In this document: in pieces, positions 15,952 through 25,103 of the stretch
Layout: the number at the start of each line of letters is the position of its first letter
Position numbering within the stretch: the first letter of the stretch is position 1
NCBI GenBank assembly: GCA_019359515.1
Contig: JAHHHC010000002.1
Location: forward strand, 62,001-126,000
DNA length: 64,000 nt
Origin: Desmonostoc vinosum HA7617-LM4
GTDB taxonomy: Bacteria; Cyanobacteriota; Cyanobacteriia; Cyanobacteriales; Nostocaceae
Reading direction: 5' to 3'
Position numbers and translations under genes: made by a program
Notes under the pieces: generated by a model
Told to the model about the DNA's origin: nothing
Databases searched by the model: none
Seen by the model: only the letters and a program-made list of their open reading frames with translations

Positions 15952-18603
15952 TTAAAATTCCCAACTAATCGAGCCAGTGATTGTCAAAGGCTCACCTCGG
16001 TAGATGTAGTTTCTGCTAGTGCTAGCTCTGACATAATCTATATCAAATAAATTGCGGATATTAATCCCTGCCCTAAAACCATCTCTACGATAGTAAAGCG
16101 ACCCATCAGTCCGCAGGTAATCGTCTAGCTCAAATGAGTTATCTAAATCACCTTGTCGATTGCCCACATAAAACAGCCCTAAACCAAAGCCTAAACCTTT
16201 CAAATCCCCTTTCTGGATTTCATAGGTTGTCCAAAGACTTGCCTGATTTTGTGGCGCACCGGGTAGTTGGTTACCCACAGGAGTCACCTCATCTTTCGTC
16301 ACAATTGCATCTGTGTAAGCATAGGATGCCGTCACTTTCCAGCCGGGTAAAAGCTCACCTGCAACATCTAATTCAATACCTCGACTCCGTTGCTCTCCGG
16401 TTTGGATGGAAAATAGAGGATTATTGGGATCTGTTGTGGTGACATTGGTTTTGGTAATTTGATAAACAGCTAATGTTGTTGAAAGTTTCTTGTCTAGAAA
16501 GTCTGCTTTTACACCCACTTCGTATTGAGTTCCCTCGGTGGGTTCAAACGCTCTCCCATCTGGGTTAAATCCTGAAGTTGGGAAGAATGAAGTGGCATAG
16601 CTGGCATACAAAGAAACCGCGTCACTGGGCTGATATACCAAGCCAATCCGAGGGCTAAAGGCTCCATCATATTGGATTGGTTGGTCGATTCCATCTTCAA
16701 AGGTTTCATTTTCAGAGGAAACCCAATTGTAGCGCCCACCGATCAGGAGCTTTAGGTTGTCACTAAAAGCAATTTGGTCTTGTAGGTAAATTCCATAGTT
16801 TGAGTTGATATTGCTGAAACCAGTTAGCAATACACTGACATTGGATATGGAAGCATCATAGTTGGGATTCCGAATATCGAAAGGTGGTAAATCGCCAGTA
16901 AGCAGTTCACCTACTTGGTATACAGACCGATAGTAATCGGCACCAATTAACAATTGATGTTCAATACTACCCGTTTTAAACTTGCCCAACACGTCGATTT
17001 GGGCAGCATAGCTATCATTCGCATTTGTACCATCAAGAAAAAGAGTAAAAGGAAAAGGTGCAGATTGATCGATCACGTCACTGAAAGGAGGTACAACATC
17101 TGTCTGTTTGCCGGTTGATCCCGTTCCAGCAAAGGTGTTGCGAATTTGCCAGTTATCATTGAACTCATGCTTGAGGCTATAACCATATCTCTGAGTGGTT
17201 TTCTCAAACAAGGCGATATCAGGATAACCGATGAATAGGTTGCGGGGAGTTAGACTGCCATCTGCTAGAAGTAGAGCAAACGACTCAGGTGGGTTGGAAG
17301 TAACACGAGTGTATTCATAGTAGAGGTTTAAGCTTGTGCGATCGCCTAAGTTCCAAGTAATTGAGGGTGCGATCGTTGTTTGTTCCGAGTTGACAAAGTC
17401 TTGAAAACTGTCTGCCCCTCGATAGCTGGCGATGAATCGGTAAAGCAGGTTTTTATCTCCAGTCAATGGTCCAGAGACATCGATACCGGGCTGGTAAACT
17501 CCATAGTTCCCTGCTTCAAACTCTAGTCTGTAATAAGGTTCGGTTAGAGGTTGCCGAGTCACTATATTAATTACACCACCAGGTTCCAACGCACCGAATA
17601 GAACCGAAGCCGGGCCTTTGAGGACTTCCACTTGTTCGATTGTACCGATAGATGACACACTATAGTAGTCAACATCGCGAGTACCGTTTCGCAAAGTTGC
17701 AGCACTACCTACAAATCCCTGCTCAAATCCTCTAATAATTCTATTGCCAGTTTGTCCGTTGTTATTTCCACCATCGAGAACTCCACTAACGGTTTCCACT
17801 GCCTGGGTAATATTTGTGGTTTTGCGGTCTTCTAGCACCTGTCGCGGCACCACCTGAATCGACTGTGGAATATCCCGAATCGGCGTATCCGTCCGCGTTG
17901 CTGTACTCGCATTCGGCACATTATACCCATCCTGCTCACCTGTCACCACCAACTCAATCGGGTCATCCGGCTTCTCTTGGGGTTTCTCGGTTACTGGCTT
18001 TTCCTCTACTGGGGTTGTGTCTGGTGGTTTCGTTGCAGTTTCTGTCGATGCTACTGCAAAAATCAACCCGGCGTTATCGTCAAATAACTCAACTACAGGT
18101 AAGGCTTTCTCACCAATTACCGTCACCCTGACAGTATTCGCATCAATATTTATAACTGTAATGGACGTAATTCCCGCAAGAGGTTTTTCCGATTTAAAGG
18201 TGAAAGCGTCCCCATTGGCTAATCGCAACTGCCCACCAGTTATGTCTGCGATAAAATTATTCCCCGTACTGCGATTGGCAACTTGCAGTTTATCCCCTGC
18301 GATTGTCTCTAAAATCACCTCCACACCATTCTCGGTGAGACTTGCCTTTACTCCCGTAATTGTGACAACTGAACCTGCTTGAGTAGGAGGGTTGTCTGGT
18401 GTTGGCGACTGTACCAGCATTTGAGCGCTAGTCGCGGGAAGTTTGATCTCACTCAATTGGGAAATATTTTTACTTGCTGTATCCGCTTTTGTCTTTGCAA
18501 CCTTCCGATCTATTTGATCGCTATTTTCTTGTGCCTGTACTGGTTGGGCTACTAGCACCAATAAAGCACCTATCAAAGATAAGCACCGTAGCTGACTCAA
18601 CAT
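15952..18603 (-). CDS. TonB-dependent ferric-siderophore receptor with AMIN domain
   Basis: 883 aa outer-membrane receptor. Order: signal peptide (1-24, ending PVQAQ), AMIN domain (about 78-187), Pro/Thr/Glu-rich linker (about 188-215), a TonB-box-like IELVVTGEQDG (217-227), plug domain (about 240-345, with IPQSIQVVPRQVL and VLKGPASVLFGALEPGGVIN), then a 22-strand-type barrel ending in the outer-membrane C-terminal motif GSISWEF. An N-terminal AMIN domain is common in cyanobacterial siderophore receptors. It lies directly downstream of an AraC regulator on the same strand, across a 97-bp gap holding paired direct repeats. The substrate is not identifiable from sequence; schizokinen-like hydroxamates are only a family-based guess. 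Confidence 0.93.
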   Translation of the reverse strand: MLSQLRCLSLIGALLVLVAQPVQAQENSDQIDRKVAKTKADTASKNISQLSEIKLPATSAQMLVQSPTPDNPPTQAGSVVTITGVKASLTENGVEVILETIAGDKLQVANRSTGNNFIADITGGQLRLANGDAFTFKSEKPLAGITSITVINIDANTVRVTVIGEKALPVVELFDDNAGLIFAVASTETATKPPDTTPVEEKPVTEKPQEKPDDPIELVVTGEQDGYNVPNASTATRTDTPIRDIPQSIQVVPRQVLEDRKTTNITQAVETVSGVLDGGNNNGQTGNRIIRGFEQGFVGSAATLRNGTRDVDYYSVSSIGTIEQVEVLKGPASVLFGALEPGGVINIVTRQPLTEPYYRLEFEAGNYGVYQPGIDVSGPLTGDKNLLYRFIASYRGADSFQDFVNSEQTTIAPSITWNLGDRTSLNLYYEYTRVTSNPPESFALLLADGSLTPRNLFIGYPDIALFEKTTQRYGYSLKHEFNDNWQIRNTFAGTGSTGKQTDVVPPFSDVIDQSAPFPFTLFLDGTNANDSYAAQIDVLGKFKTGSIEHQLLIGADYYRSVYQVGELLTGDLPPFDIRNPNYDASISNVSVLLTGFSNINSNYGIYLQDQIAFSDNLKLLIGGRYNWVSSENETFEDGIDQPIQYDGAFSPRIGLVYQPSDAVSLYASYATSFFPTSGFNPDGRAFEPTEGTQYEVGVKADFLDKKLSTTLAVYQITKTNVTTTDPNNPLFSIQTGEQRSRGIELDVAGELLPGWKVTASYAYTDAIVTKDEVTPVGNQLPGAPQNQASLWTTYEIQKGDLKGLGFGLGLFYVGNRQGDLDNSFELDDYLRTDGSLYYRRDGFRAGINIRNLFDIDYVRASTSRNYIYRGEPLTITGSISWEF

Positions 18604-18670
18604 TGCTCACACCACACTGAGAAACACTCTCAGGTACTCTACAACTTTGTTCAGTCCAGATGAATAGAGT

Positions 18671-18714
18671 TTTGATCGCTAGACGGAATTTTTTTGATCC
18701 CTAGACGGAATTTT
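18671..18714 (-). promoter_or_regulatory. Two tandem 22-bp direct repeats, likely AraC operator of the TonB receptor
   Basis: On the plus strand TTTGATCGCTAGACGGAATT recurs as TTTGATCCCTAGACGGAATT with a period of exactly 22 bp (two helical turns). The second copy contains the stop codon of the araC gene. The same arrangement with diverged sequence is at 24069-24112 before the second receptor. Direct repeats two turns apart are the classic binding pattern of AraC-family dimers. Binding is inferred. Confidence 0.7.
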
Positions 18715-19696
18715 TTCGTTGCTTTTTGTATTCTTTGGGGTTTAGTCCAAATTTATCTCGGAATGCAGCCGCAAAATAACCTCGATTAGCAAATCCCACC
18801 AACCGCGAAACTTCCGTCGTATTTATATCTTCCGTTTCCAGTAATTGGCGAGCTTGTTCTAAGCGATAATCATGCAAGTAGCTAAATACTGTCTTACCAA
18901 ACACTTGACGAAATTCGCGCTTGAGGGTGCATTCGTTTAGTCCTGCTTGCCTTGCCAACTCGCCCAGTGAAAGCGGATGAGCTAAATTCTGTAATAAAAT
19001 TTCTCTAGCGTGATAGATGCGATCGCGTCGCTCTGGCTCTAGATTAATAGCCTGTATTCGCCCTTTGTAAATTTCTGTCTCTTGCTCTAGTACCAATGCC
19101 ACTACTTCCAGTACTTTTCCTTGCAAACACATCCGTTTAGTAATACCCTGATAGGGACAGCGTAAAATTTGCCACAACATACGTTCCATCATAGGCGTTA
19201 TACTTGCACAGCGCGTGTAGTGTTCTTGATCGGGTTGACGAATCAAATGCGAAAATTGTGCAGGAAGTTGTCCTTGGAAGTTGCCAATGAAAGAATGTAG
19301 CACCTGTGGTTGTATAGAGATTGTTATTTCCAAAATGTAATGGCTGTCAACACTATCTATGATGTCTTTGGGGGCTATGCCGCTACCATAAAGGGCGTAC
19401 TGATTGTCACCGACCTCAGTATACTTATCCTTGTGTTGTCCACAGAGATGGAAGTGAAAATCTAGCCAACTTTCCCGTTCTGGACGAGTAATAAGTAGGC
19501 GATTGTGCCATCGAAAATTATCAATCCACAGTTCCAATCCTTCCCTGAGTATGATTGTTCTTGAATAGCCATCTCCCAGAAGCATAGGCGTTGGATGGAC
19601 CATATCTAGCTCATCATCGGGATCTAATTGATAGCACTGTTCAACCGTTTCATCATGTAAATCATCGAAGCCTTCCAGTGGGATGGTGATTTTCAA
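18701..19696 (-). CDS. AraC-family transcriptional regulator (PchR-like), unit 1
   Basis: 331 aa. The start is a TTG at 19696 with GGAG 10 bp upstream; no ATG fits the paralogue's length better. The N-terminal 220 residues form a sensor domain (DELDMVHPTPMLLGDGYSR...), the C-terminal 100 the two-HTH AraC DNA-binding domain (LGELARQAGLNECTLKREF, then TTEVSRLVGFANRGYFAAAF and the closing FGLNPKEYKKQRK). PchR-type regulators sense ferric siderophore and activate receptor genes. Its stop codon lies inside the putative operator of the downstream receptor. Paralogue of the regulator at 24099. Confidence 0.9.
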   Translation of the reverse strand: MKITIPLEGFDDLHDETVEQCYQLDPDDELDMVHPTPMLLGDGYSRTIILREGLELWIDNFRWHNRLLITRPERESWLDFHFHLCGQHKDKYTEVGDNQYALYGSGIAPKDIIDSVDSHYILEITISIQPQVLHSFIGNFQGQLPAQFSHLIRQPDQEHYTRCASITPMMERMLWQILRCPYQGITKRMCLQGKVLEVVALVLEQETEIYKGRIQAINLEPERRDRIYHAREILLQNLAHPLSLGELARQAGLNECTLKREFRQVFGKTVFSYLHDYRLEQARQLLETEDINTTEVSRLVGFANRGYFAAAFRDKFGLNPKEYKKQRKNSV

Positions 19697-20007: not shown

Positions 20008-20864
20008 ATGACCATAGCTCAAGATAAGATATCTCAACAAGGCATCTATGAAGATGTTACCTTTCCCCCTGGTGATTTATATAGCGACGAGCCTCCCTTG
20101 GAAACCGAACTGCATCTGAGACAAATAATCCTACTTTTAACCTGTCTAGAATGGCTATGGCGAGATCGAAATGATTTCTATGCAGCTGGAAACCTGACAA
20201 TATACTATAGTCCAAATCAACTCAAATCAGAAGATTTCCGAGGCCCAGATTTTTTTGTAGTCTTAGGATGCGATCGCAAAACCCGTAAAAGTTGGGTAGT
20301 TTGGGAAGAAAACGGCAAATATCCGAATTTAATTATAGAAATTCTGTCAGACTCAACAGCGAAGACAGACAAAGGTTTAAAAAAAGAAATTTATCAAAAT
20401 ACATTCCGTACTTTAGATTATTTTTGGTTCGACCCATACACACAAGAATTTGCGGGATTTCATTTAGTAGATGGAGAGTATCTACCTCTGCAACCAAATG
20501 CACAAGAATATTTGTGGAGTCAACAGTTAGGGTTATATTTGGGAGTTTATCAGGGTTTATTGCGGTTTTTTACACCAGATGGGCAACTAGTACCAACACC
20601 TGAAGAAACGGCACAACAAGCACAACAAAGATTAGAACAGGCACAACAAACAGCACAACAGACACAACAAAGATTAGAACAGGCAGAACAAACGGCACAA
20701 CAAGAAGCTGAAAAGGCACAACGTTTAGCAGCAAAATTGCGGGAGTTAAATATCGACCCAGATACAATTTAGACTACTGCGATCGCTCTATGTATAGCAG
20801 GGAACAAAATTTATACCAATTTCTAACTATTACTTTAAGAGCGATCGCCTAAACAGGATCGAAA
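19902..20864. repeat. Duplicated block, copy 1 (Uma2 gene plus flanks)
   Basis: Nearly identical to 20926-21845, including about 105 bp upstream and about 90 bp downstream of the gene. Offset is 1024 bp. Both copies are bounded by HIP1-rich sequence (GCGATCGC), which may have served as recombination points. The main length difference is 42 bp inside the Gln-rich 3' coding repeat. Confidence 0.95.
20008..20772 (+). CDS. Uma2-family (DUF820) putative endonuclease, copy 1
   Basis: 254 aa, ATG start. Uma2 proteins are PD-(D/E)xK-fold proteins abundant in cyanobacteria, of largely unknown biological role. Visible fold residues: GPDFFVVLG (D81), LIIEILSDST (E111) and the following KTDKGLKKEIY with Lys. 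The C-terminal 55 residues are a Gln-rich heptad-like coiled coil (QQRLEQAQQTAQQ...) made of repeated units. It is a near-identical tandem duplicate of the gene at 21032, with 14 more residues in the Gln-rich tail. It lies between two iron-uptake units, transcribed against them. Confidence 0.85.
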   Translation: MTIAQDKISQQGIYEDVTFPPGDLYSDEPPLETELHLRQIILLLTCLEWLWRDRNDFYAAGNLTIYYSPNQLKSEDFRGPDFFVVLGCDRKTRKSWVVWEENGKYPNLIIEILSDSTAKTDKGLKKEIYQNTFRTLDYFWFDPYTQEFAGFHLVDGEYLPLQPNAQEYLWSQQLGLYLGVYQGLLRFFTPDGQLVPTPEETAQQAQQRLEQAQQTAQQTQQRLEQAEQTAQQEAEKAQRLAAKLRELNIDPDTI

Positions 20865-20925: not shown

Positions 20926-21845
20926 AAGCGATCGCGCTCAGTTATTGAAATCTATGTCTTGGCTGTGTAGCGATAGCCAACTACAACGCTGCTAAAATAA
21001 ATCCAGAAATACTTGATGCCCTATCGATTCTATGACCATAGCTCAAGATAAGATATCTCAACAAGGCATCTATGAAGATGTTACCTTTCCCCCTGGTGAT
21101 TTATATAGCGACGAGCCTCCCTTGGAAACCGAACTGCATCTGAGACAAATAATCCTACTTTTAACCTGTCTAGAATGGCTATGGCGAGATCGAAATGATT
21201 TCTATGCAGCTGGAAACCTGACAATATACTATAGTCCAAATCAACTCAAATCAGAAGATTTCCGAGGCCCAGACTTTTTTGTAGTCTTAGGATGCGATCG
21301 CAAAACCCGTAAAAGTTGGGTAGTTTGGGAAGAAAATGGTAAATATCCGAATTTAATTATAGAAATTCTGTCAGACTCAACAGCGAAGACAGACAAAGGT
21401 TTAAAAAAAGAAATTTATCAAGATACTTTTCGCACTTTAGATTATTTTTGGTTCGACCCATACACACAAGAATTTGCGGGATTTCATTTAGTAGATGGAG
21501 AATATCAACCTCTGCAACCAAATGCACAAGAATATTTGTGGAGTCAACAGTTAGGGTTATATTTGGGAATTTATCAGGGACTATTGCGGTTTTTTACACC
21601 AGATGGGCAACTAGTACCAACACCTGAAGAAACAGCACAACAGACACAACAAAGATTAGAACAGGCACAACAAACGGCACAACAAGAAGCTGAAAAGGCA
21701 CAACGTTTAGCAGCAAAACTGCGGGAGTTAAATATCGACCCAGATACAATTTAGACTACTGCGATCGCTCTATGTTTAGTAGGGAACAGAATTTATACCA
21801 ATTTCTAACTATTACTTTAAGAGCGATCGCCTAAACAGTATCGAA
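20926..21845. repeat. Duplicated block, copy 2 (Uma2 gene plus flanks)
   Basis: Second copy of the block at 19902-20864, with only scattered substitutions and the 42-bp shorter Gln-repeat region. The duplication is recent. Confidence 0.95.
21032..21754 (+). CDS. Uma2-family (DUF820) putative endonuclease, copy 2
   Basis: 240 aa, ATG start. Same fold residues as copy 1 (PDFFVV, EILSDST, KGLKKEIY). Differences in the body are few (for example Asn to Asp in IYQNTF/IYQDTF, Leu to Gln in GEYLPL/GEYQPL). The Gln-rich tail has one 14-residue unit fewer, consistent with slippage in the coding repeat. Its 3' flank runs towards the convergent, broken TonB receptor at 21874. Confidence 0.85.
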   Translation: MTIAQDKISQQGIYEDVTFPPGDLYSDEPPLETELHLRQIILLLTCLEWLWRDRNDFYAAGNLTIYYSPNQLKSEDFRGPDFFVVLGCDRKTRKSWVVWEENGKYPNLIIEILSDSTAKTDKGLKKEIYQDTFRTLDYFWFDPYTQEFAGFHLVDGEYQPLQPNAQEYLWSQQLGLYLGIYQGLLRFFTPDGQLVPTPEETAQQTQQRLEQAQQTAQQEAEKAQRLAAKLRELNIDPDTI

Positions 21846-21873: not shown

Positions 21874-23989
21874 TTAAAACTCCCAACTGATAGAGCCAGT
21901 GATTGTAAAAGGCGCACCTCTGCGGATATAAAGTGGGCTATTTGAGTAGCTAGCATAGTCTGTATCAAATAAGTTACGAATATTCAGTGCGGCTCTAAAC
22001 CCATCTCGACGATAGTAAAGTGCCGCATCAGTACGTAAGTAATCATCCAATTCAAACGAGTTAGCCAGATCACCTTGACGCTCACCTATGTAAAACAGTC
22101 CCAAGCCAAATCCTAAACCTTTGAGATCGCCCTGTTGAATTTCATAGGTTGTCCACAGGCTGGCTTGATTGTAGGGCACATTAAAGAGTCGATTGCCAAC
22201 CGCAAAGGTTTTATCTTTGGTGATTTCTGCATCCGTGTAAGCATAGGAGGCAATCACCCGCCATCCTGGTAAAATCTCACCAGCAACATCTAGCTCAATC
22301 CCTTGACTCTGTTGCTCCCCAGTTTGGATAGAAAGGAATGGGTTATTGGGATCGGCTGTAACCACGTTTGTTTTGGTAATTTGATAGGCGGCTAAGGTGG
22401 CTGAAAGCCTTCTGTCTAGCAAGTCTGTTTTAATCCCAACTTCATACTGAGTCCCTCTCGTTGGCTCAAATATTTGATCTGGGGTAAATGATGTGGTCTG
22501 GACAAAGGAGCGACTATAGCTGGCATAGAGAGAAACGGTATCGCTGGGCTGATACACTAGCCCAATGCGTGGGCTGAAAGCACCATCAGTTACCACTGGC
22601 TCATCAGTGTTATTAAAGAGAGTTTCAGATTCATTAGATACCAAATCATAGCGACCGCCAATGAGTAGTTTCCATTGATTGCTAAACTCAATCTGATCTT
22701 GAAGGTAAACGCCATAAGAGCGAGTTTGCGACTCGGACACAAAATCTTGGACTAAATCGCTGGGTCTTGTGACATTGTAGATTGGGTTCAGCAAATCTAG
22801 ACGAGGTAGGGGTTCTTGACTGGTGAAAGAGCTAAAGCTCCCAGATTTATCCTCAACATCAAAGCCTACTACAAGTTGGTGTTTGATCGAACCTGTATTA
22901 AACTTTCCCACCAAGTCTATCTGTCCAAAATAAATGTTAGTTGAATAGAAACGATCAAGATAGAGGTAATCTATAAAGCGATCGTCCACGATCGCAATAG
23001 GGACAGCAAATCTCTGATTGGGAACTTGAAAGTTGTTGATGTAAAGGGCGCTGCGAACCTGCAAGTTGTCGTTAAAGTTATGCTTTAGCTCGAAGCCATA
23101 CTGTTGACTTTGCCTGTTGTCAAAGGTCAAATCTGGATTACCCCAAACATTAACGCCTCTAGGTAGAAGACTACCATCACTAAGTACAGCAGTGTGGAGA
23201 CCACCATAAAGATCTCCTCTGTATCTACTGTATTCATAGAATAAATCCAGGCTGGTGCGATCGCCCAAATTCAAGCTAATCGAAGGTGCAATGAATGTAT
23301 TGTTCTTGCCACCACCGTTAAAATAACCATCAAACGTGTTGTAGGCGGCAATAAACCGATAGAGAATATTTTTGTCAGTAGTCAATGAACCGGATAGATC
23401 AATACTGGGCTGATAAAATCCACGATTACCTGCTTCAAAACCAAGCTTATAATAAGGCTCTCTCAGCGGCTTTTTGGTGATCGTATTGATAACTCCACCG
23501 GGTTCTAGCGCACCAAACAAGACAGAGCCGGGTCCCTTGAGTAACTGTAATTTCAGTGATTCCCGCAACTGGTTTTTCAGAACGAAATGTAAAAGCCTCG
23601 CCCGAAGGTAAGCGCAATTGTCCGCCAGATACATCGGCAATAAAATTATTACCAGTACTGCGATTTGTCACTTGCAGTTGAGGCCCAAGCGGGGTTTCTA
23701 AAATCACCTCCACACCTTTATCTGTGGGATTGGCTTTAACTCCGGTGATTGGTACAACTTGATTTGTCGGTATTGGCGACTGTACTAGCATTTGGGCGCT
23801 AGTGCTAGGACGCTCTATCTGATCGAGTCTAGGAATCTCTCTAATTGACCGGGAATTACGTATTACCGATGCCACAGATTTATTTTGTATCTCTTGCTTA
23901 GGTACTTCTTTTGCAGCTGCACTGACTGCACCCCAAAGCCAAACGGAAGTTGTCAGTAAGAAAATCTTTACCAACTGTTTTTGTTTCAC
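21874..23989 (-). pseudogene. TonB-dependent siderophore receptor, internally deleted and frameshifted
   Basis: Paralogue of the receptor at 15952. The 5' part (23989 to about 23545, GTG start) encodes signal peptide and most of the AMIN domain, ending ...AGITEITVTQ; the frame then shifts and reads out-of-frame receptor sequence. The 3' part resumes at LLKGPGSVLFGALEPGGV and runs through the complete barrel to GSISWEF. Against the intact paralogue, about residues 152-327 are missing: the end of AMIN, linker, TonB box and most of the plug. TTACT is present at the junction and fits both sides, suggesting a short-homology deletion. The barrel frame is otherwise open, so the loss is recent. No functional receptor is expected. 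Confidence 0.9.
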
Positions 23990-24068
23990 TTAATTACCCC
24001 ACACCAGACTCAAACAAGAATTCTTATCAACAAACACTATCAGTAATCTAGTGCCATAAGAAAGCTGT

Positions 24069-24112
24069 TTTGGTCGCTAGCTGTAGTTTTTTTGGTCACT
24101 AGCGGGATTTTT
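24069..24112 (-). promoter_or_regulatory. Two tandem 22-bp direct repeats, likely AraC operator of receptor 2
   Basis: Plus-strand TTTGGTCGCTAGCTGTAGTT and TTTGGTCACTAGCGGGATTT, G to G spacing 22 bp. Same design as at 18671-18714: the araC stop codon (TAG) is part of the second copy. A shared core, CTAG then 2-3 bases then GA/CCAAAA (minus strand), is kept while the rest has diverged. Confidence 0.65.
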
Positions 24113-25103
24113 TGCGTTGCATCAAGTACTGTTTTGGGTTGACACCAAATTTTTTCCTAAAAGCGGCGGCAAAGTAACTGCGGCTGGCAAAGCCGATTTT
24201 TTGGGCAACTTCACTCACTTTCATTTCCCCTGTTTCCAGCAATTGATACGCCTGTTCTAAGCGGTAATCGTGGAGATAAGCAAACAAGGGCTTGCCGAAT
24301 ACCTGTAAAAACCCGCACTTGAGGGCATACTCATTGAGTTTGACCAAGCGTGCTAGTTCTGCGGTAGAAGGTGGATTATCTATTTGTTGCAATAACAAGT
24401 CTCTGGCATGGAGAATCTGCTCTAATGTTCCCGGCTTTAGCGGCTTGTGTGTCTGGCTTCCCATCTGAATTTCTGCTTCTTCCTTCAGCAGTAGTGCTAA
24501 TAGTTCCAGCACTTTGCTTTCCAAGTACATGCGCTTAATCATGCCCTGGTAGGGACAATTTAAAATATCTCGCACATTGTATTGCATCATCGGAGTCATG
24601 AGATTGGAGCGAAAGTGGAGGGGTTGGTCTGGCTGACGCACTAAATGTCGCAATGCTTGTGGTAATTCCCCGGTGGAATTGCTGATGAAGGACTGCAACA
24701 ATTCTGGTTGAAAATGCACACCCACAAACAGTTGCCGTCCTTGTGAAAAATTATCTTCTCCTCTAACACCTATACCACTGCCACAAAAACCATACTGTCC
24801 GGCTGCTGTCTCATTAACTCCCCAAACAGAGTTTTCCCACCACTGTCCTGAAAGCATCAACCAAAACTCTAGGGGATGAGGATGGTCAATGCGTTGTTTT
24901 ATCAGGTTGTCATGGCGCTGATAGCTTTCAATCTCTAACACCAAGTTTTGTCGCAGTTCCACTCGTCGAAGATACCCTTCCCCCAATACCTGGGGACACT
25001 TGTAGGTAACATCTAACTCATCATCGGAGTCACTGTTTTGTGGAGTTTCGTTAGCTTCTGCAAAAATTTCTTGGTAAGTTTGTGCTGAAATAGCGATGGT
25101 CAT
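24099..25103 (-). CDS. AraC-family transcriptional regulator (PchR-like), unit 2
   Basis: 334 aa, ATG start. Same architecture as the regulator at 18701: N-terminal sensor domain with DDELDVTYKCPQVLGEGYLR, C-terminal AraC domain with TAELARLVKLNEYALKCGF and VSEVAQKIGFASRSYFAAAF, ending GVNPKQYLMQRKKSR. In the first HTH the usual Lys-Arg before the Phe is Lys-Cys-Gly, a minor change. The frame is intact although its receptor is broken, so it could still regulate other genes or be decaying. Confidence 0.9.
   Translation of the reverse strand: MTIAISAQTYQEIFAEANETPQNSDSDDELDVTYKCPQVLGEGYLRRVELRQNLVLEIESYQRHDNLIKQRIDHPHPLEFWLMLSGQWWENSVWGVNETAAGQYGFCGSGIGVRGEDNFSQGRQLFVGVHFQPELLQSFISNSTGELPQALRHLVRQPDQPLHFRSNLMTPMMQYNVRDILNCPYQGMIKRMYLESKVLELLALLLKEEAEIQMGSQTHKPLKPGTLEQILHARDLLLQQIDNPPSTAELARLVKLNEYALKCGFLQVFGKPLFAYLHDYRLEQAYQLLETGEMKVSEVAQKIGFASRSYFAAAFRKKFGVNPKQYLMQRKKSR

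Follow-up and report, generated by a model that had tools for sequence, protein, structure and literature searches.

Tandem direct repeats behind PchR/IutR-like araC genes as likely operators of TonB receptor genes in cyanobacteria

AraC-type regulators of iron uptake are known from several bacteria. AraC itself binds as a dimer to araI1 and araI2, direct repeats about two helical turns apart, of which the proximal half-site adjoins the -35 element; the half-sites described here differ from these in their letters, are spaced 21 or 22 bp apart and stand at two distances from their promoters. In Pseudomonas, PchR and its PchR-box, said to go back to Michel in 2005, reportedly combine an AraC-type regulator beside a siderophore receptor with Fur co-control and pyochelin as effector. 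The likeness to the present case lies in the regulator beside the receptor and in a putative Fur co-control. MarA acts as a monomer without a sensory domain. On the marbox its two recognition helices lie in adjacent major grooves (ToxT paper), and two recognition helices per half-site are also predicted for the regulators studied here. That AraC proteins bind direct repeats is established (PMC9723621). YbtA of the yersiniabactin region is an AraC-type activator associated with repeat elements and Fur boxes (PMC8725597); these repeats are described as putative pseudorepeats or pseudopalindromes, with no stop codon overlap found in the available parts of that account, whereas those reported here are direct repeats, many of which overlap a stop codon.

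The closest studied relatives of our regulators are the IutR proteins (Sll1205, Sll1408 and Slr1489, also called 'PchR') of Synechocystis PCC 6803, AraC-family activators encoded upstream of TonB receptor genes (PMC11221513). Receptor activation under iron deficiency has been reported for them, and in EMSA each bound one to three receptor promoters, the paralogues differing in which (PMC11221513). The study names three HOMER motifs, given in a figure only, and the word 'repeat' is absent from its main text (PMC11221513). The available parts of that account mention neither a half-site nor a helix-by-base code, and give neither a promoter distance nor an overlap with the stop; all four are described here. 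The open-licence literature searched, as far as its texts were available, likewise yielded no account of the half-site or its two-helix code, of a promoter at two distances or of an operator overlapping the stop, which is a weak negative.

The window analyzed here is a stretch of 64,000 nucleotides from Desmonostoc vinosum HA7617-LM4. It holds two minus-strand units in which araC lies directly upstream of a TonB receptor gene. Unit 1 runs from araC1 (19696-18701) through the repeats to receptor 1 (18603-15952), while unit 2, at higher window coordinates, consists of araC2 (25103-24099), the repeats and the remnants of receptor 2 (23989-21874). Their features are as follows.

15952..18603, minus strand: TonB-dependent receptor 1, with AMIN, Plug and barrel in a single open frame.
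18617..18633, minus strand: palindrome CTGAGAGTGTTTCTCAG, Fur-box-like and with a putative role as such, just past the -10; coordinates counted by hand.
18636..18641, minus strand: -10-like hexamer TAGAGT of unit 1, beginning 46 nt past the second TCC (counted from its T), where the family most often has it.
18673..18693, minus strand: the promoter-proximal half-site (2) of unit 1, AAAAATTCCGTCTAGCGATCA, whose TCC has its T at 18687; period 22.
18695..18715, minus strand: half-site 1 of unit 1, promoter-distal, AAAAATTCCGTCTAGGGATCA; holds the araC1 stop TAG (18703-18701), T of TCC at 18709.
18701..19696, minus strand: araC1, PchR/IutR-like regulator (P0001); its final codons AAA AAT TCC GTC TAG lie within half-site 1.
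21874..23989, minus strand: receptor 2, broken into two frames (23447-23989 and 21874-23640).
24034..24039, minus strand: TAGTGT, the -10-like hexamer of unit 2, 46 nt past the second half-site (counted from its T).
24071..24091, minus strand: half-site 2 of unit 2, AAAAACTACAGCTAGCGACCA, the weaker half, with TAC replacing TCC.
24093..24113, minus strand: half-site 1 of unit 2, AAAAAATCCCGCTAGTGACCA; holds the araC2 stop TAG (24101-24099), T of TCC at 24107.
24099..25103, minus strand: araC2 regulator (P0002), with Y256, A257 and C260 in the recognition helix of its first helix-turn-helix (HTH1; araC1 numbering).

An initial annotation had described paired 22-bp direct repeats between araC and the receptor gene in both units, and this was confirmed. 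The unit 1 copies (18670-18691 and 18692-18713) agree at 21/22 positions at a spacing of 22; those of unit 2 (24063-24084 and 24085-24106) are 77% identical in that register and agree at 18/22 in the best one. The pair of unit 1 thus spans 18670-18713, off by one from the 18671-18714 first given. The araC TAG was said to belong to the second repeat in both units, which is true on the plus strand; in the direction of transcription this is the first, promoter-distal repeat. Spacing, described as undiverged, is constant inside the window and varies outside: the period is 21 in a third unit on contig C72 of the same genome, which has an identical layout and TAG again in its first half-site, and 23 in one whose regulator shares 76% identity with araC2 (L002 and L026). 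With periods of 20 to 23 across the family, strict spacing invariance was rejected. Of the two iron-uptake units described, unit 1 has its receptor in one open frame, and in unit 2 the receptor is a broken gene.

At a threshold of at least 17/22 and with periods 18 to 25 tested, period 22 occurred at exactly two places, the two units; period 18 gave one cluster, period 21 five, period 24 four, and the remaining periods none. A family matrix, built from 180 relatives and including both window units in its training set, matched the window on both strands only at these units, with scores of 65.6 and 39.4. A two-box pattern search of the whole genome returned units 1 and 3 and one further place, missing unit 2 because its second half has TAC. 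The further place, L317 (G000:C84:16511-16542), is a match without the TAG part.

The AMIN part and the barrel of receptor 2 sit in different frames, and comparison of the two receptor sequences found no counterpart in receptor 2 of receptor 1 residues 152-323, a span that takes in most of the Plug domain. Together with C260 in the regulator and TAC for TCC in the second half-site, the split receptor suggests that unit 2 seems to be decaying. In a related unit (L136, its DNA identical to L028), where the regulator is 71% identical, an open frame of 898 codons stands where receptor 2 is broken. Elsewhere in the genome of the window an araC fragment (residues 2-249) adjoins the last 53 residues of a TonB receptor, a decayed unit (L004/L056, G000:C87:68455-69317). 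Two Uma2-family genes of equal domain span (20008-20772 and 21032-21754) lie between the two iron units, and on a Gloeocapsa plasmid (L311), too, a Uma2 gene separates araC from a receptor whose annotation is split into two pieces.

Both regulators belong to the AraC/XylS family, with a C-terminal domain of two helix-turn-helices; Pfam HTH_18 matches them at E 5.5e-21 and 8.6e-19. A predicted model (mean pLDDT 89.8) has helices from 255 to 266 and from 305 to 316; superposing its DNA-binding domain on MarA-DNA 1bl0 gave Z 12.8 (2.6 A, 107 aligned), and 2k9s matched at Z 13.8. Residues 30-211 of the model resemble CuxR 5nla (Z 10.8, 3.5 A, 154 residues), BgaR 6nwh (Z 9.4) and AraC 2arc (Z 7.8, 4.0 A, 141 residues). 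The N-terminal domain is thus predicted to be an AraC-type sensing and dimerisation domain, a likeness of common fold only. Residues 256, 260, 305 and 307 would correspond to the MarA contact positions 42, 46, 91 and 93, with the numbering carried over from equal spans.

Searches for the regulator covered 118 genomes of the family, 47 of which had a match at 1e-40, and 388 of the class, where 110 had one at 1e-60; from named genomes the best 80 of 519 places were kept. The 308 loci, being the best-scoring or hand-picked part of longer match lists, gave 307 araC units after one weak araC match was dropped; 250 distinct units remained after merging identical DNA and leaving out five units without a stop or with less than 150 nt after it. 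At least 18 regulator matches occurred in one genome, the most seen among the matches listed. A receptor match lay within 700 nt in 191/250 units. In a first set of 73 araC-receptor regions, restricted to units with such a receptor match, period 21 was found in 25 and period 22 in 24, against 0.15 expected for each from dinucleotide shuffles; the next periods were 16 (four regions) and 23 (three).

Over the whole collection, 130/250 regions after araC carried a 21/22-bp repeat at a match of at least 14/18, compared with 1/250 and 0/250 coding controls and 8/116 stretches upstream of araC. Before araC starts, period-21 and period-32 repeats each occurred in 7/116; the former may be sites of the preceding unit. 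The initial annotation had proposed a motif search before other AraC-linked TonB receptors, and an iterated matrix search did find the pair in 180/250 cyanobacterial araC units, with 0/250 coding, 0/249 shuffled and 1/249 reversed controls. No site reached the matrix threshold in the other 70/250 units. The two half-sites have the same orientation and lie about two helical turns apart, with periods of 21 (102 sites), 22 (69), 23 (6) and 20 (3), so that 171/180 have period 21 or 22. The half-site consensus from the 180 sites is AAAAA-W-TCC-G-TC-TAG-C-G-N-T-C-A, numbered from the T of TCC as 0.

Plasmids carry the site too. Six of nine plasmid records were taken in, and of the eight araC genes on these six named records three possess a site, and in every case the -10 stands at 45 or 46 nt. 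A 49-kb stretch of a Picosynechococcus PCC 7002 plasmid gave a single matrix match, 115 nt past an araC stop. Since two of the three plasmid sites may be relatives of training members, the Acaryochloris case (L312) is the cleanest outside one. In a metagenome bin that is labelled Candidatus Gracilibacteria (SU_1_2) and is probably misassigned, two contigs (L102 and L105) carry regulators with 50-52% identity to the cyanobacterial one.

Covariation between regulator residues and operator bases was computed over the 180 units (effective number 114), site finding having used no protein data. The nine strongest pairs, with z from 18.2 to 5.5, involve residues 256, 257, 260, 304, 305, 307 and 309, all within or at the edge of both recognition helices: base -1 with 257, 256 and 260, then (base before residue) 13-305, 10-304, 12-309, 9-307, 13-309 and 7-307. 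The best pair in the N-terminal domain had z 5.1, and that domain held 19 of the top 50 couplings (34.6 expected) and 57 of the top 100 (69.1 expected). Couplings below the top nine spread over the protein, as shared ancestry would give. Since helix residues are coupled with base -1 in HTH1 and with bases 7-13 in HTH2, the positions of the model helices suggest that HTH1 reads the 5' part of the half-site and HTH2 the 3' part, about one turn apart. Each half-site would accordingly fall to both helix-turn-helices of one subunit.

Weighted counts show how sharp the pairings are. T257 goes with T at -1 in 55.8/60.2 and K257 with A, C or G at -1 in 35.8/35.8; R305 goes with C at 13 in 66.4/69.4, L305 with A at 13 in 10.5/11.5, and D304 with C at 10 in 11.9/12.9. 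Contacts of R305 with C at 13 (G on the opposite strand), of D304 with C at 10 and of R256 with G at -1 would be chemically sensible. When bases were predicted after training on proteins less than 55% identical, accuracies against the majority baseline were 0.91/0.53 at -1 (coverage 0.73), 0.86/0.69 at 13, 0.67/0.44 at 9, 0.68/0.55 at 10 and 0.69/0.54 at 12, with 73 to 96% of cases covered; this test is not fully held out because the predictor residues were chosen on the full set. Thirty random N-terminal residue sets all stayed below these values, with maxima of 0.76 (-1), 0.80 (13), 0.54 (9), 0.58 (10) and 0.63 (12).

Phylogenetically independent pairs, averaged over 200 pairings and counted as with : against : no difference, used 145 to 178 of the 180 rows, those with disagreeing half-sites or a missing residue being left out. 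They gave 7.0:0.0:4.0 for T257 and 6.4:0.1:0.4 for D304, both at p<0.05 by median. The counts were 3.7:0.0:3.3 for R305, 5.2:0.0:3.8 for A309, as expected, 5.1:0.0:7.9 for Y307 with A at 7 and 2.8:0.0:1.2 for R307 with G at 9, so that the differing pairs followed the prediction and hardly any ran counter to it. Only two of the six couplings reached p<0.05 by median in sign tests because few independent pairs exist.

Within 12 hand-picked genomes holding several units and 43 regulators, the cognate site outscored the non-cognate one in 105/138 comparisons and ranked first for 27/43 regulators, where chance would give 12 in these hand-grouped genomes; L051, L052 and L141 are clear misfits. Regulator 1 (C256, T257, R260; N304, R305, Y307, A309) fits its own site, which has T at -1, A at 7, G at 10, T at 12 and C at 13. 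At the site of regulator 2 (Y256, A257, C260; S304, R305, Y307, A309), base -1 is A in one half and C in the other, and base 13 is C, in line with R305. As both its HTH1 residues and its -1 bases differ, the divergence at -1 between the units goes with changed HTH1 residues; A257 alone predicts no single base there. A selected dimer-binding site with regulator-specific bases had been proposed from the window alone, and the occurrence in 180/250 units, the helix-base covariation and the cognate preference in 105/138 comparisons all lend support to it at the level of sequence.

The site also stands in a fixed relation to the receptor promoter. A TANNNT hexamer lies 46 nt after the T of the second TCC in 119/180 sites and at 45-47 nt in 148/180, over a background of 2.7 sites per position. 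Of the 32 sites without it, 24 have TANNNT at 34-37 nt, one helical turn closer, and 16 of the 148 carry the closer hexamer too. Both window units belong to the far class (-10 at 45-47). With an assumed 17-nt spacer, the -35 of near-class promoters would overlap the second half-site, and that of far-class promoters would fall just outside. At araBAD the -35 overlaps the proximal half-site, as it would in the near class here. The distance from site to -10 is constant whatever the distance to the araC stop. Among sites with a -10 at 45-47, the -10 stands at 45 in 16/61 of period 22 vs 0/84 of period 21, a comparison uncorrected for phylogeny, and the first TCC lies 67-68 nt from the -10 in 144/145 sites of period 21 or 22; half-site spacing and -10 distance thus partly trade off.

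Downstream of the -10 a TTGANAANNATT-like stretch is found. Among the 148 promoters, 39 match the E. coli-type Fur consensus at 12/19 or better (9.3 expected), 43 match the Anabaena FurA consensus (PMC4005646) at 13/19 or better (8.1 expected), and 42 have palindromes past the -10 (16.9 expected). Iron control of the promoter by Fur would fit these matches. Upstream of the -10 the same promoters share two conserved patches, TCTTC at about 25 to 21 nt and TTTCC at about 7 to 3 nt.

In 64/180 sites the first TCC falls exactly 6 nt before the araC stop, and motif positions 6-8 are then the stop codon (TAG in 54, TAA in 6, TGA in 4). Fifteen sites lie further into the gene, 44 lie within 20 nt around or past the stop, and 57 lie beyond 20 nt, up to 457 nt; at 15 of the 44, placed at +7, the A-run forms or adjoins the stop. 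Since the operator sits at the very end of araC in many units, the TAG of the motif is there the stop codon, and the 5' part encodes a K-N/K-S-x tail. Of 63 genes ending (N or K)-S-x, 61 use TCC for this Ser and 56 stop with TAG, and of the 1252 other Ser codons of these genes 12% are TCC; therefore it is the DNA that is conserved at the araC tail. A selected device was rejected as the main reading of the overlap. Only one of the three consensus frames meets a stop (TAG); a gene into which the site moves in that frame is therefore terminated there, and the overlap is probably a by-product of this in-frame TAG; it looks like compaction with a ready-made stop. Repeated gain and loss would fit the FastTree phylogeny, a quick tree with branches not individually checked, on which the overlap state changes at least 29 times. 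It is doubtful, as a more speculative variant, that the operator is kept in its own regulator's frame because this is useful, with araC transcription clearing the operator as a self-timing element and the operator writing the K-N-S-x tail.

We consider it very likely that each tandem serves as operator for the PchR/IutR-like AraC activator encoded beside it, two subunits of which would activate the receptor promoter. The tandem looks like the landing site of the adjacent AraC-type protein because the letters of the site change with the residues that would contact them. Binding, activation, ligand and Fur control are what we infer, as follows. The two subunits would occupy one face of the DNA in head-to-tail order; within each half-site, AAAAAWTCCGTCTAGCGNTCA, HTH1 would read the 5' AAAAAWTCCG and HTH2, about one helical turn on, the 3' TAGCGNTCA. 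The bound dimer would then activate the receptor promoter, whose -10 lies 45-47 nt (or 34-37 nt) past the second TCC. The Fur-box-like element over the start probably adds iron repression, and the ligand is probably an iron-siderophore complex. The mechanism would be that of an ordinary AraC-type operator.

The site could be real and yet serve repression, or control of araC itself, rather than receptor activation. It does lie downstream of araC, where a bound protein could block reading through, but an activator in contact with RNA polymerase would need just such a -10, fixed on the receptor side at 46 or 35 nt with one helical turn between the two positions, and in a Synechocystis iutR triple mutant the Fe-uptake genes are reported to lose their iron-deficiency response (PMC11221513); we regard this reading as unlikely. 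Another protein, such as Fur or a global regulator, might bind the repeats with araC a mere neighbour, as the Fur-box-like stretch nearby and the repeat still present in 16/59 units without a receptor match within 700 nt might be taken to indicate. Because an outside common protein would not make the bases follow the recognition-helix residues of the adjacent AraC, this is very unlikely.

It is also highly improbable that the repeat is a coding or RNA feature, kept by selection on the K-N-S-x tail or as a terminator or attenuator at the end of araC. The overlap with the stop in one register at 64/180 sites would suit it, but the 57/180 sites that begin more than 20 nt past the stop would not, nor would the near-constant TCC of the tail Ser (61/63) or a -10 that keeps its distance from the site and not from the stop. 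A functionless 22-bp repeat, due to chance or to recent local duplication, might be suspected from the nearly identical copies of unit 1; since the tandem recurs from one cyanobacterial family to another, nearly always at 21-22 bp, and is missing from the controls, it is hardly credible.

If each tandem is indeed the operator of the adjacent activator, the family would offer a natural data set on DNA recognition by AraC proteins, in which the promoter stands at either of two distances that differ by one helical turn. A residue-to-base code of this kind would let the pairing of regulators and receptors be predicted from sequence. It would also mark decayed pairs and find targets without an adjacent araC.
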